Shown: one piece after another, positions 36 through 46,726 of the stretch
Numbering within the stretch: position 1 is the first letter of the stretch
How the letters are laid out: every line of letters begins with the position of its first letter
Virus record (IMG/VR): IMGVR_UViG_3300034358_000044
Span: 1-64,000 of that record
Length of the DNA stretch: 64,000 nucleotides
Direction: 5' to 3' (one strand)
From: a virus
Program-made: the position numbers and the translations under genes
The notes under the pieces: model-generated
Database searches by the model: none
The model's input: the letters and a program-made list of their open reading frames with translations, nothing else
What the model was told of the DNA's origin: nothing

Positions 36-64
36 CCTTATGCCAAAAGGTGGCCCACAATTGA
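36..64 (-). promoter_or_regulatory. Sigma-28-like bipartite promoter, copy a
   Basis: Read on the minus strand this is TCAA, 15 nt, then TGGCATAAGG. It matches the other copies in the window in both boxes and in spacing. It points at the gene that leaves the left edge. Confidence 0.6.
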
Positions 65-132
65 GTCTTCGAGAAGCCCAGTGCTGATAGCTAACCAAAA
101 GAGGGCGACGATACCCACTCCTGGGGGTGCTG

Positions 133-150
133 GCCCGTGGCGATACGGGC
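133..150 (-). terminator. Hairpin after gene 170-442
   Basis: GCCCGT at 133-138 pairs with ACGGGC at 145-150 around a 6-nt loop, 20 nt beyond the stop of the minus-strand gene at 170-442. There is no U-run, so termination is inferred from position and shape. Confidence 0.4.
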
Positions 151-169
151 TTACTTCGTTCTGCTTCTT

Positions 170-442
170 CTACTTCTTGCTCTTCTTGGTCGGACCACTG
201 ATGACGACAGTGGGCTCAGCCAGGTCCTTTATCTTCTCCAGCGCTGTTGCTGGAGACTCGAAGTGCTTCGAGAAGCAGTCGTTGTGGTACATCCCCCACT
301 CCCTGGTCTCACTGAACCTCTCAGCGAGGATGGGCGCTCCGGGGATGGGGGACTTCTGCTCCTTCAGCATCTGGCCCTGAAGTACCTTGATGGTCTTCAT
401 CAGGTACTTCAACGGCTTTCCACACGCATTGCAGACGGTCAT
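170..442 (-). CDS. Small zinc-finger-like protein
   Basis: A 90-residue protein preceded by a good Shine-Dalgarno sequence (AAGGAG, 6 nt before ATG). It begins with CNACGKPL (CxxC near residues 4-7) and later has an H-N-D-C pair (about residues 53-56). Together these could bind one zinc ion. The tail is lysine rich (KKSKK). The same CGKPL motif recurs in the small ORF at 39608-39796. No family was recognised; a nucleic-acid or protein adaptor role is a guess. Confidence 0.8.
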   Translation of the reverse strand: MTVCNACGKPLKYLMKTIKVLQGQMLKEQKSPIPGAPILAERFSETREWGMYHNDCFSKHFESPATALEKIKDLAEPTVVISGPTKKSKK

Positions 443-481
443 ACGGTCTCCTTCTTCGACTGGGCGGGATGCCCAGGGTGC

Positions 482-742
482 TTACTGCAGGGTACGGCCA
501 CGGATTGAAGAGCACTCTTCGTAGTGCTTCCACACTGCCTCAAAGTCTATGGTGTTGTGGATGTCCTCTTTGGCACAGATGACCTCGACCAAGTCCTCAG
601 GAGTCGAAGCCTTCTTCACCATGCTCATGTAGTTGAGCAACAAGAGGAAGTCGTAACCCTCCTTCATAGGGCTCTCCTCTTTGCTTCTCTTCTCCAGAGT
701 TCGCTCGAAGTGACGAAGCGCCCAGTCGAAGTCAGAGGGCAT
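482..742 (-). CDS. Hypothetical protein
   Basis: An 86-residue acidic/helical protein (starts MPSDFDWALRHFERTL) with no membrane segment and no recognised family. Its start codon lies inside the 3' end of the upstream gene at 732-923 (11-nt overlap), which implies translational coupling in one minus-strand transcript. Confidence 0.75.
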   Translation of the reverse strand: MPSDFDWALRHFERTLEKRSKEESPMKEGYDFLLLLNYMSMVKKASTPEDLVEVICAKEDIHNTIDFEAVWKHYEECSSIRGRTLQ

Positions 743-923
743 GGATGGTGCTGACGGTCTCTGTGATGAGCTCCTCTGCCAACTTCACCGCCAACTTCGG
801 AGTCATCGTCCCGTCTATGCCCTTGTAGTGGGCTATGAAGATCCTCGCGGCGATGTCCCCCAGCTTGGCGTTCATCGCCAATATCTGGAGTTCCCTTTCC
901 TTCTCTTTCTGCTTGTCGGTCAC
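732..923 (-). CDS. Hypothetical helical protein
   Basis: A 63-residue protein starting at GTG (923) with AAGGA placed 7 nt upstream. The N-terminus is charged (MTDKQKEKEREL) and the rest is predicted helical. It is the first gene downstream of promoter copy b (965-993) and overlaps the next gene by 11 nt. No family was recognised. Confidence 0.7.
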   Translation of the reverse strand: MTDKQKEKERELQILAMNAKLGDIAARIFIAHYKGIDGTMTPKLAVKLAEELITETVSTIHAL

Positions 924-964
924 GTTGCATCCTTGGCTAAGAGAGCAAAAGCGCTCTCATAGAG

Positions 965-993
965 CCTTATGCCGAATGCCACAGAGGTTTTGA
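965..993 (-). promoter_or_regulatory. Sigma-28-like bipartite promoter, copy b
   Basis: On the minus strand: TCAA (993-990), 15 nt, CGGCATAA (974-967), then GG. The first gene start downstream is the GTG at 923. It lies between the terminator-like hairpin at 1000-1034 and that gene, as expected for a new transcription unit. Confidence 0.65.
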
Positions 994-999
994 GAGCTA

Positions 1000-1034
1000 C
1001 ACAGAGAGGGAGCACGGTGGCGCCCTCCCCTGTG
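1000..1034 (-). terminator. Hairpin after gene 1036-1629
   Basis: CACAG and GAGGG (1000-1010) pair with CCCTC and CTGTG (1023-1034), giving a 5+5 bp stem 2 nt after the stop codon of the minus-strand gene at 1036-1629. A short T-poor tail follows, so termination is likely but not certain. Confidence 0.5.
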
Positions 1035-1035
1035 A

Positions 1036-1629
1036 CTACGCCTTCTTGATACCCAGCTTCCTCCTGAAAGCAGTGACCTTCTGCACAGGGACGCCCACCG
1101 TCGAAGCGATGATGCTGTCGGGTATCTCACCCAGGAAGGCTGCTACCTTGTCCTCCCAGCCGTGGGTCTGGTCATAGGCGTAGTCCCACCCCTTGGCCTT
1201 GAATGCCTCCTTCACCGTGCCATAGTGGAAGAGCGCCGAGTAGTAGGCCCGTGGATTGGCCTTGCGCAGAGCGGCAGGAGGGAGCCTGGACTCTGCATCT
1301 CCGAGCGCCTCCAGCGTCTGCATGGCGCACATGAAGTGCACCTCGTAGTACGAGTCTCCACCCAATGAGCCTCTGAAGATGGGCTGGAACCTGCAGGCGC
1401 ACTCCGGGCACTTGGTGGTGGTGTCCAGTGGATCGCGCCTGAAGCCCCTGACAATCTCCACAGGCTCCAGCTTGTAGCTGCAGCTGGGGCACTGCGCTTT
1501 GGGAGAGAGGACAACGTCTTCTCCTGAGTGCAGTGCTGCCAGCAGCGCCATTCGCATGTCGAGCTTCTGCTCGATGCTCATGCTCTGGCGCTGGCTGAGG
1601 ACCTGGCGCTGGCCCATCTCCATCCTCAC
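1036..1629 (-). CDS. Zinc-ribbon protein with C-terminal helix-turn-helix-like segment
   Basis: A 197-residue protein starting at GTG with a strong GGAGGAG site upstream; it overlaps the previous stop as GTGA. Two CxxC pairs (CPSC near residue 47, CPEC near residue 74) form a likely zinc ribbon. The N-terminus has LSQRQSMSIEQKL, which faintly recalls glutamine-rich activator segments of sigma-54; I would not push that. The last 30 residues (SIIASTVGVPVQKVTAFRRK) look like a helix-turn-helix. A transcription-related role is plausible but unproven. Confidence 0.8.
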   Translation of the reverse strand: MRMEMGQRQVLSQRQSMSIEQKLDMRMALLAALHSGEDVVLSPKAQCPSCSYKLEPVEIVRGFRRDPLDTTTKCPECACRFQPIFRGSLGGDSYYEVHFMCAMQTLEALGDAESRLPPAALRKANPRAYYSALFHYGTVKEAFKAKGWDYAYDQTHGWEDKVAAFLGEIPDSIIASTVGVPVQKVTAFRRKLGIKKA

Positions 1630-1967
1630 GGCTCCTCCTTCGCGCGCAGCTGGAGGATGACCTCGGTGTGGAGCTTTCCCTTCTTGCGCATTCGCTCAGT
1701 GCGCTTCATGAAGGTGAAGCTGTCGCCGTTCTCCACCTTCGTAGAGGTGAGCGTTCCACGACGGCACACTGGCAACTCGTCCACCTGCACCACGGGGACG
1801 TCCCTGTTGGGCTTCTGCACGCCCACAGTGGGGTCAATCTGCCTGGCGCAGGCAACGCAGTAGTACCGTCCATTCAAGAAGACCTCTTCGATGAACTCGG
1901 TCTTCCCGAAGACTTTCACATCGATGTGGACCCTGATGCCGCACTTCGAACAGATGGTGTGAGCCAC
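1626..1967 (-). CDS. Small zinc-binding protein
   Basis: A 113-residue protein starting at GTG (AGGAG 6 nt upstream). CSKCG near the N-terminus and CVAC at about residues 38-41 make a four-cysteine zinc site. The C-terminal half is basic (RTERMRKKGKL). It sits between the 27-residue ORF at 1977-2060 and the zinc-ribbon gene at 1036-1629, with stop/start overlap to the latter. No family was recognised. Confidence 0.8.
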   Translation of the reverse strand: MAHTICSKCGIRVHIDVKVFGKTEFIEEVFLNGRYYCVACARQIDPTVGVQKPNRDVPVVQVDELPVCRRGTLTSTKVENGDSFTFMKRTERMRKKGKLHTEVILQLRAKEEP

Positions 1968-1976
1968 GGTGCTCTC

Positions 1977-2060
1977 CTAGGTCAGTTTGATGAGAAGCCG
2001 GTGAGCCGCAAGCGCCTGCCCAGGAGTGGGCAAGCACCACTTCCAGAAGAGGCGCCTCAT
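1977..2060 (-). CDS. Possible 27-residue basic peptide
   Basis: ATG at 2060 overlaps the stop of gene 2057-2308 as ATGA and the frame runs 27 codons to a TAG at 1977. That TAG touches the ribosome-binding site of the next gene. The peptide is rich in Arg, Lys, Leu and Trp. The gap-filling overlap on both sides is typical of real genes here, but the length is too short for a firm call. Confidence 0.35.
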   Translation of the reverse strand: MRRLFWKWCLPTPGQALAAHRLLIKLT

Positions 2061-2308
2061 CGACGAATGGTGGCAACGATGGTTCCCTCGGACATCTTCG
2101 AGGTCACCATCTTGGGGAAGTACAACGTCCACGACTCCCCAGCCCTCAGCTCCATCGAGCGAAGCTGGTACCGGATGTTCCTCCTGCTCCCACGTCCAGG
2201 CCGCCTCCACCCGGGCATCTGCAGGCTGATGCTCACAGCCTTCCACGTCATGGCACCTGGGCCTTCTGAGCCCTGGGCACGCTTCTGAGCCCTGTTCTTG
2301 TCGGTCAT
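2057..2308 (-). CDS. Hypothetical basic protein
   Basis: An 83-residue protein with many Arg and Gly residues in the first half and a beta-like second half (ESWTLYFPKMVTSKM). It starts at ATG 2308 with GGAGGG as ribosome-binding site. The leader carries promoter copy c and a hairpin that contains this site, the same arrangement as gene 2477-2644. No family was recognised. Confidence 0.7.
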   Translation of the reverse strand: MTDKNRAQKRAQGSEGPGAMTWKAVSISLQMPGWRRPGRGSRRNIRYQLRSMELRAGESWTLYFPKMVTSKMSEGTIVATIRR

Positions 2309-2315
2309 TGGAATA

Positions 2316-2330
2316 CCCTCCTTTGAAGGG
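2316..2330 (-). promoter_or_regulatory. Shine-Dalgarno-occluding hairpin in leader of gene 2057-2308
   Basis: In the minus-strand RNA, CCCUUC pairs with GGAGGG across an AAA loop (6 bp with one G-U). GGAGGG is the ribosome-binding site, so folding would hide it. An identical 15-nt element lies at 2652-2666. Confidence 0.5.
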
Positions 2331-2369
2331 TCGCTCAGGAAGCAGCTTTATGCTGTTCTCTGGCTATAG

Positions 2370-2398
2370 CCTTATGCCGAATCCCAGCTCTCTTTGGG
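2370..2398 (-). promoter_or_regulatory. Sigma-28-like bipartite promoter, copy c
   Basis: CGGCATAA (2379-2372, minus strand) followed by GGCTATA, with CCAA 14 nt upstream instead of the usual 15. Together with copy d it belongs to a duplicated leader of about 110 bp. Confidence 0.6.
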
Positions 2399-2476
2399 CG
2401 CAAAGGTGCCTTATAATGGAGCGCAACCAGAAGGCTAAAGGAAGCTGGACAAGCCTTCCCCTTGCTACACCCGCCA

Positions 2477-2644
2477 CTAGGCCTGCATGGGGGTGGTGCC
2501 CGTCAGCTTGACTGGCGGTGGGACCTGGACGTTGATGGTGGCATCCAACATGGCCGCAGCCAGACGGACCAGGCGCAGGTCTGAGCTCTGTTCGACTTCT
2601 CTCAACAGGTCCAACGCCATGTTCACTTTCTCGGTGTCGGTCAT
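2477..2644 (-). CDS. Small hypothetical protein
   Basis: A 55-residue protein (MTDTEKVNMALDLLREVEQ). I chose ATG 2644 rather than upstream in-frame codons because GGAGGG sits 7 nt before it and promoter copy d lies 60 nt upstream. It is mostly helical with a proline-rich end. No family was recognised. It is the last minus-strand gene before a roughly 500-nt stretch with little coding sequence. Confidence 0.7.
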   Translation of the reverse strand: MTDTEKVNMALDLLREVEQSSDLRLVRLAAAMLDATINVQVPPPVKLTGTTPMQA

Positions 2645-2651
2645 CGCAGTA

Positions 2652-2666
2652 CCCTCCTTTGAAGGG
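2652..2666 (-). promoter_or_regulatory. Shine-Dalgarno-occluding hairpin in leader of gene 2477-2644
   Basis: Exact copy of the CCCUUC-AAA-GGAGGG element at 2316-2330, again with the ribosome-binding site as the 3' arm. Confidence 0.5.
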
Positions 2667-2700
2667 TGAGGAACAGCGGTATGCCGTTCTCTCGTTATGG

Positions 2701-2729
2701 CCTTATGCCGAGTTCCACACTGTTCTTGC
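2701..2729 (-). promoter_or_regulatory. Sigma-28-like bipartite promoter, copy d
   Basis: Minus strand: GCAA (2729-2726), 15 nt, CGGCATAA (2710-2703), GG. It drives gene 2477-2644 by position. Confidence 0.65.
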
Positions 2730-2744
2730 TCCAAAGGTGCCCTA

Positions 2745-3219
2745 CAGTGGCGCGCAAGGAGCGGAAACAGGGTTTAAGACATCCTTCACCAGGGAGTAGC
2801 AGGTAGGAGTGTGAGAGTGCCTCATGTGAGGAGTGAGGGGAGTGGAGCAGGCGCATAGGAGGAGTGGGATTTGCCTCTGTGGAGGGTAGGTGGGGTCTGT
2901 GTGAGCACTATGATTCAAGGGCTGGTGAGGCCCTCTAGCCACAAGTGGTATTCCCCTCTGGGATGAAGGATGTGTCCCAGCTTGCGATCCTGAGTAGGAG
3001 CCAGAGCAGGGCGCAAAGGAGCAGCATCAACCTTCACCATCAACCTCGCCTGGCGTTAGGGCTATCTGAACACGAAAGGGAGGGGTGGGGTGGGGCTCAC
3101 TACACAGTGAATCGTTGGGGGCTATAAAACGGTGTTTGCTGGCAGGGAGCAAAAGCAGCACCCTTGAGATTTTCTTGGGGTGTTGTCAAAAACACAGTTC
3201 TGGTGCAGTTTCGGCAGGT
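2745..3219. other. Gene-poor interval
   Basis: No reading frame here has a ribosome-binding site plus protein-like composition; the 66-codon minus frame near 2742-2942 is Pro/His/Thr low complexity. GTTGGGGGCTATAAAACGG near 3113-3132 could be a plus-strand promoter with a TATAAA box for the next gene, but it is not convincing. It could also be a degraded gene or a regulatory interval. Confidence 0.4.
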
Positions 3220-3372
3220 ATGAGCCCCAGGAAGCACTACATCTGTGAGACGTGTGCTGCAGACCGTCCTGGGGTAGAGCGCAACCTGATGCCGGTCTTC
3301 AACTACTGTTGTTGGTGCGGAGAGGTGACTGCTGGCCAGTTGCTGTTGGCCGAGACAGCGCCATGTGAGGAC
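3220..3372 (+). other. 5' half of a frame-split zinc-finger gene
   Basis: ATG 3220 opens a protein-like frame: MSPRKHYICETC, then CCWCGEV, a four-cysteine zinc site (CxxC near residues 9-12 and 31-34). Around codon 50 the frame stops looking like protein and becomes Gly/Asp/Val-rich shadow sequence. Protein-like coding continues in the +1 frame (3365-3727). It could be a decayed or programmed-frameshift gene, or a short gene whose stop was lost. Confidence 0.4.
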
Positions 3373-3727
3373 ACGTGCTTTCTGGGAGCGACTGGAGAGG
3401 CTCCAGAAATTCCTGGGGGTGGGCTGGAACGACTCTCGCTGTTATACGTCAAAGGAGGAATGGGGGTTGTCCATGGGGACGTTGATGCCGAAGGGGACGT
3501 ACAGAAGCTCTCGCACTCCAACACCCAGACGAATCAAGAAGGTGACTCTGGTGAAGAAGCCAGTGGTGTGCCCCAGGTGCAAGGGGACGCACAAGGTCTT
3601 CGTCTTCAAGGACCTGATGTTCCCCATCGTGCTTCACCAGTGGATTGTGTCCAGTCGATGGGCGTTGTGCCCAGCCAGGAAAGAGCCGGTGTTCGAGGCG
3701 GAGCTGGAACCCATTCTTGAACCCTGA
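3365..3727 (+). CDS. Zinc-binding protein, or 3' part of the frame-split gene
   Basis: A frame of 120 codons from GTG 3365. It contains CPRCKGTH and a later single Cys, with a basic middle (TPTPRRIKKVTLVKK). An alternative start at ATG 3473 has AAAGGAGG 14 nt upstream, which would give an 84-residue protein. Because the upstream frame (3220-3372) also carries a zinc-binding pair and overlaps it out of frame, the two may be one protein joined by a +1 shift. Confidence 0.55.
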   Translation: MRTRAFWERLERLQKFLGVGWNDSRCYTSKEEWGLSMGTLMPKGTYRSSRTPTPRRIKKVTLVKKPVVCPRCKGTHKVFVFKDLMFPIVLHQWIVSSRWALCPARKEPVFEAELEPILEP

Positions 3728-3765
3728 TGCACCTTTCAGGTTTTTTGGGTACGAGGGCTAAGAAG

Positions 3766-3787
3766 AAAGGGGTCGGTCCACCCCCTT
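3766..3787. terminator. Possible bidirectional terminator
   Basis: GGGGT (3769-3773) pairs with ACCCC (3780-3784) around a 6-nt loop between the convergent genes at 3365-3727 and 3815-4126. The stem is short. Confidence 0.35.
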
Positions 3788-3814
3788 CCATCTTTCCTGC
3801 CCTCAACTGGAGAT

Positions 3815-4126
3815 TCACGCCTGCGCGGTGGGAGCTTCCTGCTCCTGAAGCTCTCCCAGCTTCCTGAACGACTTCTTCAGGAGCTTCACCTCGTCCTTGG
3901 TCTCGCGGATCCAGGGAGCCTTCTGGGCCGCCTGCTGCGCATGCATGCCACGGGTGATGAGGTCGCCCATGGCGGACTTCAGGTCGGACTCCTCCAGCCC
4001 CTGGCGGACCTCCTTGATGAGCCTCGGGATGACGCCGCCCTCACGGCTGATGGAGTTGTACATGGCGACCATGATGTCGGTCTCGATGCGGATGAAAGCG
4101 GCGGCGGCGTTGAAAAGGGTCTTCAT
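3815..4126 (-). CDS. Hypothetical helical protein
   Basis: A 103-residue, almost entirely helical protein (MKTLFNAAAAFIRIETDIM) ending in a coiled-coil-like Lys/Leu/Glu stretch (EVKLLKKSFRKLGELQEQE). The first 20 residues are amphipathic rather than a true membrane segment. It faces the SET gene across a 167-nt divergent gap. No family was recognised. Confidence 0.75.
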   Translation of the reverse strand: MKTLFNAAAAFIRIETDIMVAMYNSISREGGVIPRLIKEVRQGLEESDLKSAMGDLITRGMHAQQAAQKAPWIRETKDEVKLLKKSFRKLGELQEQEAPTAQA

Positions 4127-4293
4127 GGTGGTGTCTCCTGCCCCGGTGGGGCTGGTGTCGGGGAAAGCTGGATGCTTCCCGTCTACAGCCTTCTCCCAAG
4201 AACCAGCCCGGAATTGCTCTTAAAAGCCATCTTTGCCTCCTCTTCAGGAGGGGCTACCGCCAGAGGAGCCGCTTCTGGTATGAGGCGCCTCCC

Positions 4294-17305: not shown

Positions 17306-17656
17306 CTAGAGGTTCTCCGGCATGAACATCCCTCTGATGAACTGCGAGTACCCGTTGTCGCGCTTCTTCTCCTTCTTGGCCGCCTTGGGGAAGAGCTGCT
17401 CCTTCGCCATGGACTTGCCAGTCAGGATGCCCTCCCGGTACTTGTCGGCCTCGTTCTTCGCCAGAACGCGCAGCACGGCATCCGGGTGGTTGTCCCGGTA
17501 CTCGTTCATCGCGCCATAGGCAGCTTCCTGGCCACGGTGGCACGGGCCTTCGTTCTTCCACTCCCCCGTCACCTGGTCCTTGACCTGAAGCTGGTGGGGG
17601 AGAACCTCGTGCAACACATCCAGCGCGTGCTGGTACTGCTCCTTGGTGACCGTCAT
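17306..17656 (-). CDS. Hypothetical protein
   Basis: 116 residues, helical and charged, ending in a Lys-rich segment (FPKAAKKEKKRDNGYSQF). It is the first gene below promoter copy e, with a 130-nt leader. No family was recognised. Confidence 0.75.
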   Translation of the reverse strand: MTVTKEQYQHALDVLHEVLPHQLQVKDQVTGEWKNEGPCHRGQEAAYGAMNEYRDNHPDAVLRVLAKNEADKYREGILTGKSMAKEQLFPKAAKKEKKRDNGYSQFIRGMFMPENL

Positions 17657-17786
17657 GGTGTAGTCCTTGAATCGTATTGCGGGTTGGAGTACTACTGCGG
17701 GAAGCCGCGCATCGGGACTAAGCGAGAATGAAGGCTCAATTGCCCGATCCGCCCCGATGCAGCGGCTATGTTTTTTGCCTGCAGTT

Positions 17787-17815
17787 CCTTATGCCGAATG
17801 GCAAGGCCTTCTTGC
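17787..17815 (-). promoter_or_regulatory. Sigma-28-like bipartite promoter, copy e
   Basis: Minus strand: GCAA (17815-17812), 15 nt, CGGCATAA (17796-17789), GG. The GCAA box touches the stop codon of the upstream gene at 17815. The leader to the next start (17656) is the longest of the set. Confidence 0.6.
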
Positions 17816-20509: not shown

Positions 20510-20700
20510 GTCTCCTCCCAGTCGATGTTCTTCAGGTCCACTGGGGCTACGCCTGCGGCTTTGCACTTGCCGCACTGGACTTCGACGACCCAGCCGACGA
20601 TGGCATCGTGGTAGAGGCTGTACCTGCCCGCTGTCGGGTAGATGTGGCCGGTGTGCTTGCACGTCTTGACGGGCTTCTTAGGCGGTTGTTTCGCTGACAT
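20506..20700 (-). CDS. Small zinc-binding protein
   Basis: 64 residues from ATG 20700. KTCKHTGH near the start and CGKCKAAG near the end provide Cys and His ligands for one zinc. Its start lies inside gene 20678-20872 (23-nt overlap). No family was recognised. Confidence 0.7.
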   Translation of the reverse strand: MSAKQPPKKPVKTCKHTGHIYPTAGRYSLYHDAIVGWVVEVQCGKCKAAGVAPVDLKNIDWEET

Positions 20701-20872
20701 CGTCGGCCTCGATGGTGGAGTCATCCACTCCGTTGTAGACCCAGACGACGTCACCCTTCTGTGCTTTCTCGACGGCGATGTCGGTCGCTTCTTCCGAGCT
20801 TTTCGCCTCCACCTCAACTGTCGCTTCGACGTTGCCGACCGCTGAGAGATAAACCTTGAACTTCTTCTTCAT
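20678..20872 (-). CDS. Small beta-alpha protein
   Basis: 64 residues from ATG 20872. MKKKFKVYLSAVGNVEATVE followed by SSEEATDIAVEKA is a strand-helix pattern seen in short host and phage 'DpnD/PcfM-like' domains; I regard that likeness as weak. Its leader is short and carries promoter copy f and a hairpin that includes the ribosome-binding site. Confidence 0.7.
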   Translation of the reverse strand: MKKKFKVYLSAVGNVEATVEVEAKSSEEATDIAVEKAQKGDVVWVYNGVDDSTIEADDVSETTA

Positions 20873-20890: not shown

Positions 20891-20910
20891 ATACGATTTT
20901 ACGGCCATAT

Positions 20911-20939
20911 CCTTATGCCGAAGTACATGCGTAAGTTGA
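20911..20939 (-). promoter_or_regulatory. Sigma-28-like bipartite promoter, copy f
   Basis: Minus strand: TCAA (20939-20936), 15 nt, CGGCATAA (20920-20913), GG. It is divergent: the -35 part lies in the 5' end of the plus-strand gene at 20915. Confidence 0.65.
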
Positions 20940-26584: not shown

Positions 26585-27162
26585 TTGGAAACGTGAACGC
26601 CTGGGTTCCCCTCAACCCGTCAGAGGTGCCCTTCCGCAGCGATGAGCACATCCGGGCCTCGCAGTCCGTTTCGGATCGCGTTGCCTCCTACAAGGCCATC
26701 ACGAGGCAACTCGATGTATCCAGCAACCCACGGTACAAGAGGGGGCACAACAACGACCCCAAGGATGGTGAGGAGACGTACTGCAACATCTACCTCTGCG
26801 ACTTCATGTGGTGCATGGGCGTGGTGCTGCCGCACTGGGTTGACCCTGCCACTGGAGCTCCAGTCGGAATGGGCAAGGGAGTCGAGACCAGCGCCAACGG
26901 CATCTGCAAGTGGATCTTCGATCACGGCATGATGTACCACTGGATGGAGTGCAGTCAGGCCAAGGCCAGAGAGCGGGCCAGTTCAGGGTGGCCCACTGCC
27001 TGCTTCTGGCTCAACCCCAAGGGCATTGGACATGTCGTCGTCGTGATGCCGGGGATGGAGTTCACGCACATCTCCCAGGCTGGTGCGACCAACTACTACG
27101 ACGTCCCTCTCCAGAAGGGCTACGGCGGCATTCCCGGCCTGCGGTTCTTCACGCACGACTGA
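26581..27162 (+). CDS. Putative cell-wall hydrolase (CHAP-like cysteine hydrolase)
   Basis: 193 residues, start GTG. GEETYCNIYLCDFMWCMGVV places Cys68 at the N-terminus of a helix, and GIGHVVVVMPGMEF places His151 on a strand, the Cys-His pair of CHAP/NlpC-type hydrolases. ISQAGATNYYDVPLQKGYGG resembles the later part of such domains. No signal peptide or separate wall-binding domain. It could be the endolysin or a virion-associated lysin. No holin was firmly found next to it. Confidence 0.6.
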   Translation: MIGNVNAWVPLNPSEVPFRSDEHIRASQSVSDRVASYKAITRQLDVSSNPRYKRGHNNDPKDGEETYCNIYLCDFMWCMGVVLPHWVDPATGAPVGMGKGVETSANGICKWIFDHGMMYHWMECSQAKARERASSGWPTACFWLNPKGIGHVVVVMPGMEFTHISQAGATNYYDVPLQKGYGGIPGLRFFTHD

Positions 27163-30715: not shown

Positions 30716-32095
30716 ATGGCTATCCCCATGACCATGTTCCGAGCCTTCGTGGACGAGCTCACCAAGATCGCTTCTACGAAGGAGGCCATGCATTGGACCA
30801 AGGACCTCGACCGGGACATCATGAACGGTCGGAAGTATCCAGGGAGCTACCTCACCGGAGAGTTGAAGGAGCTTGGGGAGGCCATCAAGGAGCGGAACTG
30901 GAACCACATCAAGGAAGAGGCAGGAGATTCCGCATACGCAGCTCAGATGATTGTTGGACAGCGCACCGGTCTCAACCTTCCAGTAGTGGGTGCTGATAGG
31001 GTCATCAAGAAGTTCTACGATCGTATTGGAACCTGGAAGAAGGCGTTCAAGGAACAAGACGTTCCATTCTCCCACGACTACCTTGCTGGGGGTAGCAACT
31101 ACGCCAAGCCGGAAAAGGTTCAAGCAGCTTTCGCGTTGGCGAATCACCACCTCTCCGATGATGAGGCTCGTCGAATCTCTCAGAGCCTTGTCGGCAAGGT
31201 GAAGACCTCTACGGTGGTGGCGCACATCGATGGTCCTATGGGTTCCGGGAAGACGACACTCATTCGGAAGATCGGCAAGGACTTCCCTGGGTTGGTAGTG
31301 AAAGACGTTGACGAGTTCAAGAGAGACGCCGCCCACATCGTCCGGCTAGAGCTTGGAGACCGTCCTCAAAACGCAGGCCCCAAGGACGACGAACTCTTCA
31401 AGCAGAAGGTCATGGCTATGCGCCAGAAGCTCACGGATGACTTCCTTGAGAAGCACAAGGACCGTCCCGTGGTGCTGGCAGGTATGAAGGTTGGTCTCAG
31501 CAAGTTCCCATTCGAGTTCCCAGAAGAAGGGCAGGCCAAGTACCGTCTCGACGACGTAGGCCCTCTTCGTTCGACCTACCGTGCCTACAAGAGGAACCTG
31601 GATCTCGACAAGCCGCGTCGATGGCCCCTCTCTGATACTCCTCGGCGCTACCGAGAAGCCAGAGAACACATCAAGCTCCTCGACAGCATGGGGTATAGAC
31701 CTGCATCCTCGAAGGCCATCATCGAGGAACTGGGGAAGGTGAAGACCTCTGCTCTCTCCAAGGCCCAGGCTCAGGAGCGGGTGGACATGCACCACCAGAC
31801 CCGCGACTGGAACCTCTTCGAGAAGAACCTGAAGGCCAAGGCCTTCCGGCAGGCAGTGGTCTCTCATCCAGAGTCCGACGCCAAGCTGAAGCGCTACACG
31901 AAGAACTTCGGAGAGTACACCAGCTCCAAGAAGGTGCTTGGTGTGGTGCCGAGTCGGACCAGCAACAAGCTGTACAAAATCAAAGAGCTCTCCAACGGTC
32001 GGCTGGCCTGTGGATGTGGGGACTGGCAATATCTCCACTCACACAAGAAGACGGACTGCGACCACATCAAGGAATTCAAGGGGGGATTGTCATGA
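30716..32095 (+). CDS. KIA-tagged MazG-like / P-loop kinase / SWIM fusion
   Basis: 459 residues. The N-terminus carries the tag (FRAFVDELTKIAS, 8-20). Residues about 25-115 resemble a MazG-like nucleotide pyrophosphohydrolase (TGELKELGEAI ... HIKEEAGDSAYAAQMI). GPMGSGKT (173-180) with KDVDEF after it is a P-loop kinase-type domain to about residue 345. The last 45 residues are a SWIM zinc finger: Cys432, Cys434, Cys448, His450 (CxC-N13-CxH). Nucleotide or nucleic-acid phosphorylation is likely, but no substrate is evident. ATGA overlap with a second kinase. Confidence 0.75.
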   Translation: MAIPMTMFRAFVDELTKIASTKEAMHWTKDLDRDIMNGRKYPGSYLTGELKELGEAIKERNWNHIKEEAGDSAYAAQMIVGQRTGLNLPVVGADRVIKKFYDRIGTWKKAFKEQDVPFSHDYLAGGSNYAKPEKVQAAFALANHHLSDDEARRISQSLVGKVKTSTVVAHIDGPMGSGKTTLIRKIGKDFPGLVVKDVDEFKRDAAHIVRLELGDRPQNAGPKDDELFKQKVMAMRQKLTDDFLEKHKDRPVVLAGMKVGLSKFPFEFPEEGQAKYRLDDVGPLRSTYRAYKRNLDLDKPRRWPLSDTPRRYREAREHIKLLDSMGYRPASSKAIIEELGKVKTSALSKAQAQERVDMHHQTRDWNLFEKNLKAKAFRQAVVSHPESDAKLKRYTKNFGEYTSSKKVLGVVPSRTSNKLYKIKELSNGRLACGCGDWQYLHSHKKTDCDHIKEFKGGLS

Positions 32096-32691: not shown

Positions 32692-32798
32692 AAAGATTCA
32701 CTGACCGTCCGGGATCGGGGAACGCACCCCTCATTCATCCGGCGGCCGACCTCCGTACTCAGTGGTGAGTGGCCGGGTCGCGTAAGTACAGCGATACA

Positions 32799-32828
32799 CT
32801 CTTGTGCCGAAGTTTCGAAAGGAATTGC
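32799..32828 (-). promoter_or_regulatory. Weak match to the bipartite promoter, copy j (antisense)
   Basis: Minus strand: GCAA (32828-32825), 15 nt, CGGCACAA (32809-32802). It has one mismatch in the -10 box and points away from the next gene, so it would give antisense RNA. The 138-nt gap around it also holds short GC-rich inverted repeats. It could be chance. Confidence 0.3.
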
Positions 32829-34162: not shown

Positions 34163-35287
34163 TTACTCGTCGAGCTCGGTGGAGACGACGACCTTCGTCC
34201 GCACCTTGACCTCGCGGAAGACACGGATGTCCTCTCTCTTCACCCCGACCACATCGACCAGGCGGTCGATGCTCTGGGAGAGATGCTCCTTGCTGGTGAA
34301 CTCCGGCTGGCCGCAACCGGGCCAGTAGAGCAGCATCGGGAGCGGCGTGACAGGGCCGACCACCGGGGGAACATACACCGGCACAGCCTGTGCTTCCTGC
34401 GGAACCAGTTTCATCTCTTCCTCTTCCTCTTCACGCTCTTGGGTTGCGAGACGCTTTCCTCGGTAGGGGAGCCCGCTGAGCTCCCTCACCTGTTTCATGA
34501 TGTCGAGGACGATACGCTGGTCGCGGCTGATGCTGAAAACTGACTGCAGCACCATAGATGCGTCCCAGGAGTTGGCCTCAGGATTCTTCAAGAAGAAGTC
34601 CTCCAGCCAGTGGTCCCGAACCTTTCGACCCTCTTCGGAGTCCTGAGACCCCTGAGCAACCTGCTCTGTCGTCGTGGTGGGGAGTGTGAGGGTCGAGAGC
34701 CTCTCAAGCACCTGCTGCTTGTAGTCTCTCACCAACTCGACCACCTTTGACTGCGGAGCCTCTGCAGACTTCAGGGCCTGCTGCTTGGCTTCTTCGGCCC
34801 TCTCCTTGGCCCACTGCTCCTCCTTCGCCTTGCTGCGTTCCAACTGCTCAGCCTCCCGCTCTTCCCGCACCTTCTTGCGCCGCTCGCGCTCCTCCTGATC
34901 TTCTTGGAGTTTCTCTGCCCCACCCTGCTGAAGGGTGACCCGAAGTGGGGTGGGGGCGGCCATCAACTTCTCTGACACCTTCTCCAAGACCCCATCGGTT
35001 GCTGCCTTCGCCCATTCCTTGGATGAGACTCCGAGTTGGGCCAATATGGCCCCTTCCCGAACCAGCTCGTCACTCGGGAACCCTTGAAGGGCGGTGTACG
35101 CGCCCTTCTTCAGTTGACGGCGGATGGCGACGAGTTCGTCCTTGTTTGCCGGGATTCCGTCCTTCAACAGCTCTCGGATGAGGGCGTTGATTCCGAGGTT
35201 GGGGTGTTTGACGATGTAGGACCTTATCTGTTGGACACGTTTCTCGTTGTCCTTGGTGATGTTCGTCATGTACTTCCGTGATGACAT
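34163..35287 (-). CDS. Coiled-coil protein with winged-helix-like N-terminus
   Basis: 374 residues. Residues 10-70 (KRVQQIRSYIVKHPNLGINA ... VAIRRQLKKG) look like a helix-turn-helix. Residues 120-185 are an extreme Glu/Arg/Lys coiled coil. The C-terminal domain has PMLLYWPGCGQPEFTSKEHL. Own promoter (copy g) and leader, after the terminator at 35384-35403. No family was recognised. A role with the upstream AAA+ genes is possible but not shown. Confidence 0.75.
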   Translation of the reverse strand: MSSRKYMTNITKDNEKRVQQIRSYIVKHPNLGINALIRELLKDGIPANKDELVAIRRQLKKGAYTALQGFPSDELVREGAILAQLGVSSKEWAKAATDGVLEKVSEKLMAAPTPLRVTLQQGGAEKLQEDQEERERRKKVREEREAEQLERSKAKEEQWAKERAEEAKQQALKSAEAPQSKVVELVRDYKQQVLERLSTLTLPTTTTEQVAQGSQDSEEGRKVRDHWLEDFFLKNPEANSWDASMVLQSVFSISRDQRIVLDIMKQVRELSGLPYRGKRLATQEREEEEEEMKLVPQEAQAVPVYVPPVVGPVTPLPMLLYWPGCGQPEFTSKEHLSQSIDRLVDVVGVKREDIRVFREVKVRTKVVVSTELDE

Positions 35288-35337
35288 GTTTTTCTCCTTA
35301 CCGTTGGTGAAGAGATTCAGCAGAGAGTCTGCTGTAT

Positions 35338-35366
35338 CCTTATGCCGAAATGGAGGAGAGAATAAC
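35338..35366 (-). promoter_or_regulatory. Sigma-28-like bipartite promoter, copy g
   Basis: Minus strand: CGGCATAA (35347-35340), GG; the upstream box is GTTA instead of TCAA/GCAA at the 15-nt position, the weakest -35 match. It lies between a terminator and the gene start at 35287. Confidence 0.55.
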
Positions 35367-41753: not shown

Positions 41754-43157
41754 TTAGAGCTGGGGGTTCACACATTCCTGCGGACTCTTGTCCGTTCGTT
41801 CTTCGATGAAGGCGGCGAAGGTGAGGGCATTGGTGTCGTCGCCCTCGGAGATGTAGGTGCGCTCCTTGTACTCGACTCGCCACACCCTAGGCCACAACTT
41901 GACGTCGGCCATCTCCGTCTTCATCTGCTCCGTCATACCGCTGTTGAGGTTCGAGATGTACACCAGCTCGCCAGCACTGTTGTACTGGAAGAGCGCCACG
42001 CACTTGATGCCGTTGCCACCATACCGGCCCTTGGTGGAGAACTCACCTTGGCCTGATGCCGGGTTCCAGATGGCGATGAAATCGTCCTCGAAGGACGGCT
42101 TCAGCTTGGCGCAGAAGCTCCCAGGCCTGTCCGGCTTGCCCTTGAAGTTGAAGGCCTTGTCGCCGTACACGCCGTCCGGGTCCACCAGCACGAAGCCCTC
42201 CCACCCGTGGTGCTTCGCGATGGTCAGGGCTGCGTCAGTGGTAGGGAAGTGGTCGGCGGTGAAGATCTGCACCGGCCCTAGAGCGGTGCCCTGGTAGTCG
42301 AGCTCGTGTATGAGATCGAGCCGAGCTCTCACTGGCTGCTTGGAGACGAAGTCTTCTCCATTCCAGAAGGCAATGTCCCAGATGATGAAGGTCACGAACT
42401 TGCCCTCTCCATGGAGGAGCTCGTGCTGCTTCGACCGGCTCTCCATTGAGAGGCTCTTGGTGACACTCTGGATGGCCTTGAAATCCTCCAGCCCATTGGG
42501 GCCTTGGACTATCATCTCACCCAGTAGGATGCTGTTGGGAGGCATCAGGACCGAGGCAGCCTCGACAACGTAGGGGAACCTGTCATTCCAGGTGAGGTTG
42601 GTACCGGCCTCATCGTCATGCTGGCGCAGCATGCGCCGACTGTAGATTTGAATCGCCCCTTGGGCGTCTGAGACGATGACGTGCATCATCCCGTTCATCT
42701 TCCGGGTGTACCAGGCGTCACCATTCTCAGCCTTCTTGAGGAGGCCTGCTCCTGCCGCATTGAGAGGCTTGTAGAAGGCCAGGCTCTGCGGCAGGGGCTT
42801 GGTGAAGTCGATGGCAGGAGCCTCGATTGGATCGAGAGTCGTGTACTCCATCGTATCGTGGATGAAGGCGGAGACTTGAACCTCCCTGTAGCCCTCCCTG
42901 TACTTCAGCTCCATCTTCCTGAGCCCGAGAGCTAAGGCATTAGCGTTGGCGCTGACTTCGTTCTTCTTCCCTGCGTTGACGACGGGGGCCTTCTCGTTGA
43001 CCTCCTGCATGGCACCACCGAGCTGCCCCCACTTGCAGTAGAGGGTATCGTCGATTGCCCAAACTGTCCAAATTCTTGGAGAAGTGCTACGAGAGGCGAG
43101 CTGGATGAACTCCCTCTTCTCTCCCTTCCACTGGGCGTTGCGGTCTTGAAAAGTCAC
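41754..43157 (-). CDS. ATP-dependent DNA ligase with WGR-like N-terminus
   Basis: 467 residues from GTG 43157 (AAGGA 7 nt upstream); ATG 43172 is possible but has no site. Residues 28-92 resemble a WGR domain (RIWTVWAIDDTLYCKWGQLG). The nucleotidyltransferase core has motif I KMNG (153-156; usual KxDG), motif III LLGEM (211-215), motif IV EGFVLVDPDG (320-329) and motif V KLKP (351-354), then an OB-fold part. Seals nicks using ATP. It is the first gene below promoter copy h. Confidence 0.8.
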   Translation of the reverse strand: MTFQDRNAQWKGEKREFIQLASRSTSPRIWTVWAIDDTLYCKWGQLGGAMQEVNEKAPVVNAGKKNEVSANANALALGLRKMELKYREGYREVQVSAFIHDTMEYTTLDPIEAPAIDFTKPLPQSLAFYKPLNAAGAGLLKKAENGDAWYTRKMNGMMHVIVSDAQGAIQIYSRRMLRQHDDEAGTNLTWNDRFPYVVEAASVLMPPNSILLGEMIVQGPNGLEDFKAIQSVTKSLSMESRSKQHELLHGEGKFVTFIIWDIAFWNGEDFVSKQPVRARLDLIHELDYQGTALGPVQIFTADHFPTTDAALTIAKHHGWEGFVLVDPDGVYGDKAFNFKGKPDRPGSFCAKLKPSFEDDFIAIWNPASGQGEFSTKGRYGGNGIKCVALFQYNSAGELVYISNLNSGMTEQMKTEMADVKLWPRVWRVEYKERTYISEGDDTNALTFAAFIEERTDKSPQECVNPQL

Positions 43158-43199
43158 TGAGCTTCCTTTCATGGGACGTAAACTTCTACGTTGACACTG

Positions 43200-43228
43200 T
43201 CTTATCCCGAAGATCAGGGAGGTATTGA
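43200..43228 (-). promoter_or_regulatory. Sigma-28-like bipartite promoter, copy h
   Basis: Minus strand: TCAA (43228-43225), 15 nt, CGGGATAA (43209-43202), one mismatch in the -10 box. The ligase GTG is 42 nt downstream. The -35 box overlaps the start of the divergent plus-strand gene at 43231. Confidence 0.6.
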
Positions 43229-43230
43229 CT

Positions 43231-43455
43231 ATGGGCGATGGCGATGTAAGAATAGCTTCAATGGTCAGCGTGACCGTAGTAGACGCGGACAAGAAGACCA
43301 AAGAAGAGCTGTTGGGGTTGGTGGACTCGGAGGTGGAGAAGTTCTCCGACTTCATGGCCGCACTGGAGGACTGGCGGGCAAGAGGTGCCCTGAACAGCCC
43401 CGAGAAAGCTCTACTTCGTACGTACTTGATTCAGAAGATTCAAGGGAGACTCTGA
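43231..43455 (+). CDS. Hypothetical acidic protein
   Basis: 74 residues. ATG 43231 has GGAGG 8 nt upstream; TTG 43225 is in frame but too close to that site. Acidic and helical (TKEELLGLVDSEVEKFSDFM). Starts a two-gene plus-strand unit inside the minus-strand run. No family was recognised. Confidence 0.7.
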   Translation: MGDGDVRIASMVSVTVVDADKKTKEELLGLVDSEVEKFSDFMAALEDWRARGALNSPEKALLRTYLIQKIQGRL

Positions 43456-43766
43456 TGTCCCGTCTCGAAGTCATTCAGATTCGATGTGACAGGTGCAAGC
43501 GGGTCGAGCTCCAGCCCCCAGCCCCTGTCAAGGCCAGGGCGGACTTCGAAGCAAGAATCTTCGACAAGTACGTCAAGTACGAGGATCTCTGCTCGTCATG
43601 CAAGGAAGCCCTCGGTCGCATCTGGGACGACATGAGGGAATGGACCAGGGAAATCAAGCAGCAGTTCGGTCCCACTGTTGCAGACAACAAGTCAGTTCCC
43701 CTGGCTCCGGCTCCTGACTATTCGCCGCCAAAGCCGCACTCATTGGCTGCAGCGTCAAAGAAGTAG
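43455..43766 (+). CDS. Small zinc-binding protein
   Basis: 103 residues from ATG 43455 (TGATG overlap with the previous stop). CDRCKR near residue 11 and CSSCKEA near residue 50 form a four-Cys zinc site joined by a helical linker; the C-terminus is Pro/Ser-rich. No family was recognised. Confidence 0.75.
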   Translation: MSRLEVIQIRCDRCKRVELQPPAPVKARADFEARIFDKYVKYEDLCSSCKEALGRIWDDMREWTREIKQQFGPTVADNKSVPLAPAPDYSPPKPHSLAAASKK

Positions 43767-43802
43767 GCTCGGCTGCCCGTCCCCACGGCTTCGAAGCCTG
43801 CA

Positions 43803-43836
43803 GCCCCGGGGGTTCCTTGCAGGGGATCCCCGGGGC
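43803..43836. terminator. Bidirectional terminator
   Basis: GCCCCGGGG (43803-43811) pairs with CCCCGGGGC (43828-43836) between the convergent genes ending at 43766 and 43846. The loop is 16 nt. Confidence 0.65.
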
Positions 43837-43845
43837 GAGTTGTCT

Positions 43846-45912
43846 CTACGGCATCATGGGGGAGTAGTTGGTCGGGCACCCGCCGACGCACTCCATCTCC
43901 AAGACCATCACTTCCTTTTGACCGGGATGTGCATCAAACTGAGCTTTGGTGATGGGCTGAATGGGGGCGTTCTTCCGGCTCTTGTCGGGGAAGACAGTAG
44001 TTCCCTTCAAGTCGGGAAGAGCATCGATGAGCTGCTTCTCCATCTCCTCTTCGGTGAGGGACATCTGAGCCGGTAGGTTGATGGTGAAGGACACAGCGTT
44101 GTCCGCGAAGAACTCCTGGAACATCTTCTGGACCTGAAGGCTGTCCGCGAAGGAGATGTCGTACTGACCTTCCAGGACTTCGGCAGGGTCCCAGCCGGCG
44201 GCGCGAACCTTGGCCACCAGTGGATCCTCGAACCAGTAGACGACGATGTCGGTGTTCTTGGCGTCCTCGTCCGGGAAGACCTCGTAGCCTTCCGCACGTT
44301 TCACGGCGAGCTCAGCGTCATCCGAGGAGTAGCGCACCAGGCGCTTGCCCCAGGGCGTCATCATGCACTGGCCACTGGAAGTCGTCCCTGGGAGCATCGC
44401 CGTCGTGCCCGTGGGGGCCAGGGCGGTGTTCTTCACCGGAGGAGGGTAGCCGAGCTGGATGGAGTACGTGGTGGCCTCGGCCATCACGACGCCCTTGGCG
44501 GACATCAGCATGGTGTGGATCTTCGGGTCCTTCCAGCTCTCCGAGTACTTGATGCCGCGAAGAGCCAGGTAGGCGTGGAAGCCGAAGAAGCCGACCGCGA
44601 TGCGCCGGTTCCGGTCCACCACTGCACGCTGTCGAGGCTGGGGGATGTCCCCGTTGGTGGCCCTGACGAGCCAGCGCGTCATGAGGCGGAAGGCCTCCAT
44701 CATCTCCTTCTGTGGCCTCTTGGCGAAGGCCTCCAAGTTGACGTGGCCCAGGCAGCAGTTCTCCCACATCTGCAGGCCGATCTCTCCGCAGGGGTTGGGG
44801 CAGAACATGAGTTCCGGCTCCCGCTCTCCCTGCATGGCGAGGGTGCGATTCCAGAAGCCCGGCTCCCCGTTGGCCCTCTTGCCCAGAACGACTGCCCTCA
44901 TGACCTCTGAGGCAACGTGGTGGAGACTGGCATCAGGGTTCCGGTAGGCCTCGAAGAACTCGTCATCGACTTCGACTGAGATGTTCGAGCTCCACTGGGC
45001 GCCATCCGTGCGCTTGCAGTTGATGAACTCCATGATGTCCACGTCCGCCCAGTTCTTCACGGCGATGCGGCTGGAGCGCCTCTTGCCGCCTGCAACGACG
45101 CAGGCAGCCACGGTGTGGTCCAGGGTCATCGCGTCGAGGCTGGTGAGGTTCCTGCCGACGCAGCCGTTGAGGTGCTTGACGTAGTCCACCAGCATGGTGA
45201 CCAGGGGCTCTGGACCAGCAGCCGTTCCGCCACCAGCGCGCAGCGGGGCACCACGGCGTCGCACCCCGGAGACGTCGATGGTCAGGATGATGTCCTTCTC
45301 CCTGCGGTAGGGCTGGAAGGCGGCACGGGTGACCGTGTCGAGCGCCTTCACCCAACCCTCACGGCTGTCGGCCACGTTCATGTAGCTGGAGTCGCGCTCC
45401 CCGACGTGCTTCGAGAGGAGGTGGGCGAACTCGTGGTGGTCCGGGTGGGACTCGTTGCAGATGATGTGGAGGTCGATGGGGTTGGTGACCCTGGGCATGC
45501 CGTGCATGTACCGGTTCGAGTAGTTCGAGCCGACACCGCCGCCCATCATGAGCTCGTCGAAGGTGAAGGTGAAGTGGGCGGTAGGGTCCAGAGGATCCCA
45601 GCCAGCCGCGTGGCAGTTGAAGAGGTACTGACGGTCCTTCATCCCTGAAGCATTGAGATGGCGACCAGCAGGGAGAGCAGCGAAGGGCAGCAAAAGACCG
45701 ATGAGCTTGTTGCGCTCATCGGCCTCGATGAATGACTCTGGAACCAGTCCGAGGTTGCCATCGACGGCCCTCACGACTGTTTCGGCCCAGGTCTCTTTGT
45801 TTCCGTCTTCCTTCGTCTGGCTGTAGGTCCTCTTGAAGACCTGCTCACCCATGGGACCGAAGGGGATGCGTACGTCGTGGAACTGGGCCGGGAGAAAACC
45901 CTTCTCATGCAT
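43846..45912 (-). CDS. nrdJ: Class II (adenosylcobalamin-dependent) ribonucleotide reductase
   Basis: 688 residues from ATG 45912 (GGAG 6 nt upstream). Features of the monomeric B12-dependent type: PAGRHLNASGMKDRQYLFNC, CPNPCGEIGLQMWENCCLG with the radical and pair cysteines, NTALAPTGTTAMLPGTTSSG, and a C-terminal ECVGGCP redox pair. It reduces ribonucleotides to deoxyribonucleotides and needs adenosylcobalamin from the host. No nrdA/nrdB-type second subunit is encoded nearby. The similarity is to the Lactobacillus RTPR-type enzyme rather than large NrdJ. Confidence 0.85.
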   Translation of the reverse strand: MHEKGFLPAQFHDVRIPFGPMGEQVFKRTYSQTKEDGNKETWAETVVRAVDGNLGLVPESFIEADERNKLIGLLLPFAALPAGRHLNASGMKDRQYLFNCHAAGWDPLDPTAHFTFTFDELMMGGGVGSNYSNRYMHGMPRVTNPIDLHIICNESHPDHHEFAHLLSKHVGERDSSYMNVADSREGWVKALDTVTRAAFQPYRREKDIILTIDVSGVRRRGAPLRAGGGTAAGPEPLVTMLVDYVKHLNGCVGRNLTSLDAMTLDHTVAACVVAGGKRRSSRIAVKNWADVDIMEFINCKRTDGAQWSSNISVEVDDEFFEAYRNPDASLHHVASEVMRAVVLGKRANGEPGFWNRTLAMQGEREPELMFCPNPCGEIGLQMWENCCLGHVNLEAFAKRPQKEMMEAFRLMTRWLVRATNGDIPQPRQRAVVDRNRRIAVGFFGFHAYLALRGIKYSESWKDPKIHTMLMSAKGVVMAEATTYSIQLGYPPPVKNTALAPTGTTAMLPGTTSSGQCMMTPWGKRLVRYSSDDAELAVKRAEGYEVFPDEDAKNTDIVVYWFEDPLVAKVRAAGWDPAEVLEGQYDISFADSLQVQKMFQEFFADNAVSFTINLPAQMSLTEEEMEKQLIDALPDLKGTTVFPDKSRKNAPIQPITKAQFDAHPGQKEVMVLEMECVGGCPTNYSPMMP

Positions 45913-46157
45913 GGCAACTCCAGAACAATAGAAGCCCATCGGTGGCGACACCGTAGGGAGGAGGTTGGACATCTATGTGGTTAGGCGAGTAGTTCGGTCC
46001 CCAGTGCGTTAGAGCGGACGCTGGTGCCTTGCAGGGCTCCAGACGGTCCCTCTGTTATACGCCTGGCACATGAACCTGCCAAGGGTTTGGCGCTGAGAGC
46101 TAAAGGATGCGGCGGAACACGAGTTACGTTTCGTGACCGCCGGTCCTTGTACCGTCT
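45913..46157 (-). other. Structured leader of the ribonucleotide reductase gene
   Basis: About 245 nt without a convincing gene. It contains the long hairpin at 46110-46142 and an imperfect stem near 46020-46042 (CTGG...CCAG with GCC/GGC). I checked for a B12-box of a cobalamin riboswitch and did not find one. It may hold an unrecognised promoter or RNA element. Confidence 0.4.
46110..46142 (-). terminator. Long hairpin after gene 46158-46658
   Basis: GGCGG (46111-46115) pairs with CCGCC (46137-46141) and CACGA (46118-46122) with TCGTG (46131-46135), 16 nt beyond the stop. No U-run, so termination is uncertain; it may be the 5' part of the reductase leader. Confidence 0.45.
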
Positions 46158-46658
46158 CTAGGCCTGCTTTTTCCCAAGACCTCTCATCTGGAGGATGGGG
46201 TCGTTGAGGCGGTTCTTGGAGAGCCACATCAATTCTTCGATCCCTCTTATCGACGTTGCTGTGTCCGCAATGAGGTCTTCAAACTCGTCCACAGGGATGT
46301 TAGCCCTTCGACAGAGATCGGCCACTTTCTCTGCGTAGTTACCCTTACCGAGTTTGAGCATCTGGTACATCAACATCGCATTCAATCGTGTTCTCTCAGT
46401 GAGAGTCAGGCAGAACTCCATTTTGAGATCGTCTTCCCATCCCTCTGGGATGAGATCCGCCGTCAGGGTGAAGATGACGAACTCTTCAGTACTCCTCCGC
46501 GCGAACTCAGAGTTCGTTCCCAGACGGAGCTCTCTCCTCAACATGTAGTTCTTCTTCGTCAGCCCAAGAGGGTAGGCGACGAGAAGAGTTGAGACGCCCG
46601 CTTTTACGGTACCAAAGGTCCAGGCAACAGACCCCACAGCAATGAGAATGGACAGCAT
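46158..46658 (-). CDS. Hypothetical protein with N-terminal membrane segment
   Basis: 166 residues from ATG 46658 (GGGAG 6 nt upstream); the longer frame lacks a site. MLSILIAVGSVAWTFGTVKA is a signal-anchor-like helix; the rest is a helical soluble domain (ERTRLNAMLMYQMLKLGKGN). It lies below promoter copy i with a hairpin over its ribosome-binding site. No family was recognised. Confidence 0.75.
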   Translation of the reverse strand: MLSILIAVGSVAWTFGTVKAGVSTLLVAYPLGLTKKNYMLRRELRLGTNSEFARRSTEEFVIFTLTADLIPEGWEDDLKMEFCLTLTERTRLNAMLMYQMLKLGKGNYAEKVADLCRRANIPVDEFEDLIADTATSIRGIEELMWLSKNRLNDPILQMRGLGKKQA

Positions 46659-46662
46659 GTTG

Positions 46663-46679
46663 AACTCCCTTTGAGAGTT
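46663..46679 (-). promoter_or_regulatory. Shine-Dalgarno-occluding hairpin in leader of gene 46158-46658
   Basis: In the minus-strand RNA AACUCUC pairs with GGGAGUU across AAA (7 bp with one G-U). GGGAG is the ribosome-binding site. Same layout as the hairpins at 2316, 2652 and 20878. Confidence 0.5.
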
Positions 46680-46697
46680 GGGAAGATTCCCGTACAT

Positions 46698-46726
46698 CCT
46701 TATGCCTAAAACGTCCTAGCTCTTGC
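46698..46726 (-). promoter_or_regulatory. Sigma-28-like bipartite promoter, copy i
   Basis: Minus strand: GCAA (46726-46723), 15 nt, AGGCATAA (46707-46700), GG. It lies in the divergent gap between gene 46158-46658 and the tape measure operon. Confidence 0.6.

Follow-up and report, generated by a model that had tools for sequence, protein, structure and literature searches.

A family of probable minus-strand promoters in a phage encoding a sigma-70-family factor and a single-chain β–β′ RNA polymerase

Layout of the window and the minus-strand elements

The window analysed here comprises 64,000 nucleotides of a 195,735-base phage genome (IMG/VR record IMGVR_UViG_3300034358_000044, positions 1 to 64,000). 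Its upper part is a plus-strand block of structural genes (46787–63590) that is devoid of the motif described below and resembles in gene order the gp4–gp14 block of Salmonella phage Arash. Within this block, at 57197–58102 (plus strand), lies the gene of a 301-residue sigma-70-family factor, the proposed reader of the promoters. The RNA polymerase is a single β–β′ chain of 2,090 residues encoded outside the window, also on the plus strand (128221–134493). The minus strand of the window carries the short repeated elements that are the subject of this work, and the units headed by them lead into genes of nucleotide and DNA metabolism (ribonucleotide reductase, ligase). The ribonucleotide reductase (about 43846–45972) is of class II (B12-dependent) and finds its best matches in actinobacterial phages (44% identity); the named relatives of the polymerase infect Gammaproteobacteria.

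Nine minus-strand sites had been predicted from the window, and all nine are confirmed in position and sequence. At the low end, the element at 31–64 (site 36) combines TCAA with TTTGGCATAAGG and has its predicted +1 at 31 (leave-one-out matrix score 30.5 bits). The highest score (35.8 bits) belongs to the element at 960–993 (site 965), in which TCAAAA is combined with TTCGGCATAAGG 42 nt above gene 732–923 and a hairpin follows the +1. A hairpin also follows the +1 of the element at 2365–2398 (31.6 bits), 62 nt above gene 2057–2308. Its near copy at 2696–2729 (25.0 bits) is located 57 nt above gene 2477–2644. The elements at 17782–17815 (30.6 bits) and 20906–20939 (25.9 bits) precede genes 17306–17656 and 20678–20872 by 131 and 39 nt, respectively. 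The upstream box is diverged in the element at 35333–35366 (21.5 bits), 51 nt above gene 34163–35287. The element at 43195–43228 (TCAATA and TTCGGGATAAGA; 22.4 bits) lies 43 nt above an ATP-dependent ligase-like gene (41754–43157), and that at 46693–46726 (GCAAGA and TTAGGCATAAGG; 31.7 bits) lies 40 nt above gene 46158–46658, which itself precedes the class II ribonucleotide reductase gene.

The list of nine is correct but incomplete. A further candidate, GCAATT with CTTGGGAGAAGG, is found at 4184–4217 (site 4189; 26.6 bits) above gene 3815–4126, and a weak one, TTCGGCACAAGA, at 32795–32828 (site 32800; 19.4 bits), with no called minus-strand gene close below it; both are on the minus strand. 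None of the listed sites falls inside a gene called by the simple codon-usage caller written for this analysis, and the gap to the next start ranges from 39 to 131 nt in the window, which bears out the intergenic placement that had been proposed. The claim that one site abuts the start of an edge gene probably does not hold up. The ATG adjoining site 36 is unlikely to be a start codon: it falls on the predicted +1, and CTCTATGA is found again at site 965, whose called gene begins 42 nt further down. Sites 2370–2398 and 2701–2729 are near copies together with both flanks, which suggests that a small gene and its promoter were duplicated in tandem, and the two are therefore not independent.

Base-by-base reading covered part of the genome and a pattern search the remainder. 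A position matrix of 38 positions was built from 21 sites. The two boxes of the original prediction are real, but the conserved element is longer than was described: it spans 34–38 nt and consists of (T/G)CAA(A/T)A, about 12 nt, TTCGGCATAAGG and a T(−1)R(+1) start signature. Outside the boxes first proposed, TT before CGG and GG after ATAA are conserved. The C of the upstream (T/G)CAA box is present at 20 of the 21 sites and the G directly 3′ of ATAA at every one, while the predicted −1 is T at 17 and the predicted +1 is a purine at 19.

The distribution of the element is strongly one-sided. In the window, KCAA-N15-CGGCATAA with at most two mismatches gives 15 matches versus 3.64 ± 1.89 in dinucleotide shuffles, and none of 100 shuffles reaches 15. 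The composite two-box pattern is split 14/1 between the minus and plus strands (0/3 for the reversed-pattern control). Over the entire genome, matches to TTCGGCATAAGG with at most one mismatch number 16 on the minus strand and none on the plus strand; with at most two mismatches they number 29 and 8, compared with 6 and 7 for the pattern read backwards. The matrix scan that had been proposed as a check returned 26 matches in 121 kb, about 1.6 being expected by chance, and all 26 are on the minus strand. We estimate the family at about 21–25 sites in the 196-kb genome, the nine of the window included. Exact matches to TTCGGCATAAGGNTAT in viral contigs were 34 in number, single and scattered, as expected by chance, and no Rfam family was matched in the window.

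One of the 16 TTCGGCATAAGG matches, at 87760, was dropped as it sits in a tRNA array at a tRNA-like sequence. This array holds 28 tRNA genes on the minus strand (genome positions 86648–92785). Copies of the motif are located just past its low end (86606) and inside it (91164), and in one relative (L195) the motif stands directly above a tRNA-like sequence; the promoter family may drive tRNAs too. At several promoters (sites 965, 189491 and 191405, minus strand) TAGCTCTCA is found directly upstream of the −35 box or overlapping it and may be an extra upstream element, with k-mer counts of 6:0 for TAGCTCTC and 7:0 for AGCTCTCA.

At many sites a predicted 5′ RNA hairpin begins at or just after the predicted +1. 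The mean z-score of folding there is −1.62; controls taken ahead of other minus-strand genes average −0.12 (p = 5e-5), and those immediately upstream of the motif −0.17. This location supports a transcription start at the predicted +1. With sites in leaders and hairpins adjoining them, the motif could also be an RNA element acting in processing, antitermination or translation control of transcripts from other promoters. We regard this as most improbable: a spaced CAA box lies upstream of both the hairpins and the predicted start, the hairpin sequences vary while both boxes stay constant, and start codons some 60 nt further on are in keeping with a promoter. As originally predicted, the sites are very probably promoters.

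The sigma factor and the phage RNA polymerase

The window sigma factor had been described as FliA-like, a label that its scores do not support. It reaches 23.6 bits with the FliA/WhiG family model TIGR02479, whose curated cut-off is 189.6, and by this score is not a member of that family. A profile of its own family matches RpoS with 1.7e-18 over profile positions 12–235 and FliA with 3.9e-8, and prefers RpoS/SigA along its length. Homology to the sigma-70 superfamily extends across regions 2, 3 and 4, region 3 being present in 11 of 12 members; taken alone, the window protein remains below the Pfam thresholds. Its predicted structure has a mean pLDDT of 75 and a pTM of 0.37. The top Foldseek matches in the PDB are sigma factors (5e-7) with TM-scores of about 0.3, which are low owing to the uncertain placement of the domains.

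The −10-reading helix is changed. At the position of the STY tyrosine of sigma70 a histidine is found (a tryptophan in the window protein), and in most members an asparagine replaces the first tryptophan of the pair that follows. The gene occupies the same kind of place in a plus-strand structural block as gp10 of Arash and 0011 of Vibrio phage D69, and given this location the protein may have a second role in the particle. A search of the viral contig collection with the window protein alone yielded no close relatives.

The polymerase frame contains β domains followed by β′ domains and an NADFDGD active site. Rpb2_6 (3.4e-58), Rpb1_2 (6.3e-27) and Rpb1_5 (3.6e-18) are matched in one chain, and alignment to a bacterial β′ gives 3.6e-112. 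Candidate polymerase loci number 323 in one collection. The nearest relatives overall are phage contigs with up to 77% identity, and the closest annotated ones are Vibrio phages D69, D181 and D148 and Salmonella phage Arash. β and β′ are fused in this phage (locus L059, 722–6994) and in many metagenomic relatives. In Arash (L050, 94–4671 and 9442–11262) and D69 (L062, 35289–39872 and 40511–42340) the chain is split inside β′ and the remainder forms a separate gene.

The motif and its putative reader in related phages

A search upstream of the minus-strand genes of Arash, made without input from this genome, recovered TGGTATAAGTAA..TGTAA de novo, and the same procedure in D69 yielded TGTTATAAGwAA.ATGtA. 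The cognate motifs are TGGTATAAG in Arash and TGTTATAAG in D69, and the boxes of the relatives read GGTATAAG (the −10 of Arash) and GTTATAAG. The motif was recovered de novo in three phages, where "early" is drawn from gene content and strand rather than from timing. In Arash GGTATAA occurs 35 times on the minus strand and once on the plus strand; at 22 of these 35 sites the C of CAA has the offset seen in this phage, and at 26 a G follows ATAA. This phage and Arash are so distant that the polymerase and the sigma factor are the only non-structural proteins with convincing similarity between them in the compared stretches.

The orientation bias extends to a wider set of relatives. More motifs are found opposite the strand of the polymerase or sigma gene in 42 of 48 records bearing such a gene, and fewer in 4. 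The pattern CAA-N16-GKYATAAG with one mismatch occurs 443 times opposite and 134 times on the same strand (145 versus 157 for the reversed pattern); relatedness among the records makes these counts non-independent, and the polymerase or sigma gene served as the reference for orientation. Four close relatives are split 60 versus 1. All 30 sites inspected in close relatives fall between genes, in most cases some 60 nt ahead of a start, and they share a T at +12 from GG that was not part of the search pattern. A few records (G007, G008, G014 and G015) show little bias, none or the opposite one. A de novo search in arbitrary stretches of relatives G001 and G004 did not recover the motif, sites being few or tRNA T-arms dominant; a targeted search did.

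Early promoters of many phages use the host sigma70. Reading of the sites by this factor as extended −10 promoters deserves mention as the TGnTATAAG box of Arash and D69 is one base off that element. We nevertheless consider it very unlikely. Sigma70 needs a T at −7, where the G after ATAA is found (21 of 21 sites here and 26 of 35 in Arash), and the TG at −15/−14 seen in Arash and D69 is CGG in this phage. This phage has CGGCATAAG and no TTGACA-like box. Moreover, no unrelated phage shows the motif: in 16 unrelated phage records it is in no excess over the control.

The sigma factor accompanies the polymerase in 18 of 21 metagenomic polymerase records of at least 130 kb (in one of them weakly), as well as in this phage, Arash and D69. 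It is present in most large motif- and polymerase-bearing relatives, and we consider it the best candidate reader of the promoters, as had been proposed. Three large polymerase-bearing records (G011, G016 and G019) gave no sigma match. They fit a different arrangement, in which the polymerase reads the motif via another specificity subunit while the sigma factor reads something else or is structural. Such an arrangement has a precedent in the AR9 nvRNAP with its non-sigma specificity subunit gp226 (PMC7598289), and would also suit a sigma gene among structural genes and a diverged −10-reading helix. On the other hand, two boxes about 15–16 nt apart, an A/T-rich −10 and a purine start form the reading pattern of the sigma-70 family, and no further shared non-structural protein turned up in the compared stretches. 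We therefore judge another subunit improbable and retain the window sigma as the presumed reader.

A second sigma factor is found in Arash, D69 and one other among 15 records. It was rejected as the reader for most records, including this phage, as it was not found there, and with only one other of 15 records carrying it, it is unlikely to be a general reader. On the plus strand of D69, TAAAATATA occurs nine times versus once on the minus strand (for example at 31104, 34824, 41173, 148074 and 150447), mostly 26–144 nt above plus-strand genes, several of which are tail genes. It is a candidate late promoter class of D69, possibly for its second sigma factor. In Arash (OQ632216), a sequence exceeding 70 bases (ATATATAACTATTTTTAGAAAAAGTCATTCGTAATATATAAAGGG...) is repeated between genes in five near-identical copies, at 26687, 66434, 100190, 138537 and 173311.

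Proposed mechanism and comparison with known systems

We think it likely that the sites are early or middle promoters read by the phage β–β′ polymerase together with the window sigma factor, probably delivered with the virion. Sigma region 4 would read (T/G)CAA(A/T)A near −33 and regions 2–3 would read G-G-(C/T/G)-ATAAG near −14 to −7. The first RNA base would be the purine of T(−1)R(+1), which in many cases lies at the base of a 5′ hairpin. The holoenzyme would be made late and packed into virions, and once injected would transcribe the minus-strand genes early in the next infection. For this phage we infer recognition, start site, timing and packaging. The plus-strand location of its genes, amid late-type genes free of the motif, makes it probable that the holoenzyme is made late, packed and injected. 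The plus-strand late-type genes of this phage gave no promoter motif of their own, nothing but the minus-strand motif in reverse complement coming out of the search, and the model thus leaves late transcription unexplained.

Particle proteomics of Arash is consistent with packaging: β is the top protein with 3,516 spectra, β′ has 1,210, and the sigma factor gp10 has 467 spectra and 24 unique peptides, in a list of 116 proteins that includes metabolic enzymes and for which the authors note possible carry-over (PMC10585845). The second sigma factor, gp196, is not mentioned in the main text of that paper (PMC10585845).

The original prediction had assumed the host core polymerase as partner of the sigma factor, which is probably wrong given that the phage encodes its own β–β′ polymerase. 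If it were right, the phage polymerase would serve another class of genes. Phage sigma factors generally pair with host core, as is established for T4 and SPO1, and the profile match makes this one look bacterial. In jumbo phages that lack an RNA polymerase, sigma factors work with the host core (PMC7598289). We nonetheless find this pairing unlikely here: sigma and polymerase co-occur in most large records, Arash particles are reported to hold both, the alignment indicates that the sigma-docking region of β′ is retained in the phage chain, and the motif is common to phages of different hosts.

Beyond this phage, it seems slightly better than an even bet that phages of a widespread group inject an entire bacterial-type holoenzyme, comprising an often fused β–β′ core and their own sigma-70-family factor, and start infection from dedicated promoters on the strand opposite the late genes. 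If true, such a virion RNA polymerase would have retained cellular sigma logic, unlike phiKZ-type enzymes, and would bear on the divergence of sigma-dependent and sigma-independent polymerases. A sigma factor in the virion would be an unusual way to carry promoter choice into the cell. With the conserved bipartite promoter, early operons could be annotated in many metagenomic phages, and the motif, a signal common to a broad phage group, provides an exact sequence to test.

The 4-15-8 geometry had been equated with that of sigma-28/FliA promoters. The spacing of the boxes agrees and ATAA is common to both, but CGGCATAA matches the −10 box GCCGATAA at only four of eight positions, all four G/C positions being different. 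The upstream box is (T/G)CAA rather than TAAA, and the protein is not FliA-like by score; the assignment was rejected. Moraphages (PMC12619734) were considered and set aside, having no polymerase.

The closest described system is Arash (OQ632216; PMC10585845), which has a homologous polymerase and sigma factor, the same sigma gene position and a cognate minus-strand motif. It differs in the chain split over two genes, the second sigma factor gp196 and a −10 of GGTATAAG; the main text of the Arash paper contains no promoter analysis (PMC10585845).

The mReC phages are Caudovirales with a deep-branching multi-subunit RNA polymerase (Weinheimer and Aylward 2020, PMC7481178). Both β and β′ are encoded here and detectable by cellular models, and as judged by these matches and the NADFDGD active site, the polymerase is of the mReC kind; the metagenomic distribution is similar as well. 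What sets this phage apart is the fused β–β′ chain with a dedicated sigma factor and promoter family. The mReC paper never mentions sigma factors or promoters (PMC7481178), and we found no published description of this promoter family, or of a sigma factor or promoter for an mReC-kind polymerase, in the open-access literature.

In phiKZ/AR9-type jumbo phages, which have virion and non-virion RNA polymerases, early operons are preceded by promoters with a conserved motif around −10 (PMC7598289). A conserved motif, presumed early here, and a polymerase in particles (here by analogy with Arash) would be common to both systems; theirs has no member of the sigma-70 family recognisable by sequence, whereas this phage has a sigma factor of that family, a −35 box and a core of bacterial type. 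According to reviews, the jumbo phages that bear sigma factors are those without a polymerase (PMC7598289, PMC13282480). In the known pattern, polymerases of the phiKZ/AR9 kind lack a recognisable sigma factor and sigma-bearing phages usually borrow the host enzyme, whereas here the two co-occur. Phage-encoded transcription with its own promoters is known in kind; the new element here would be the cell-like sigma factor that it keeps.
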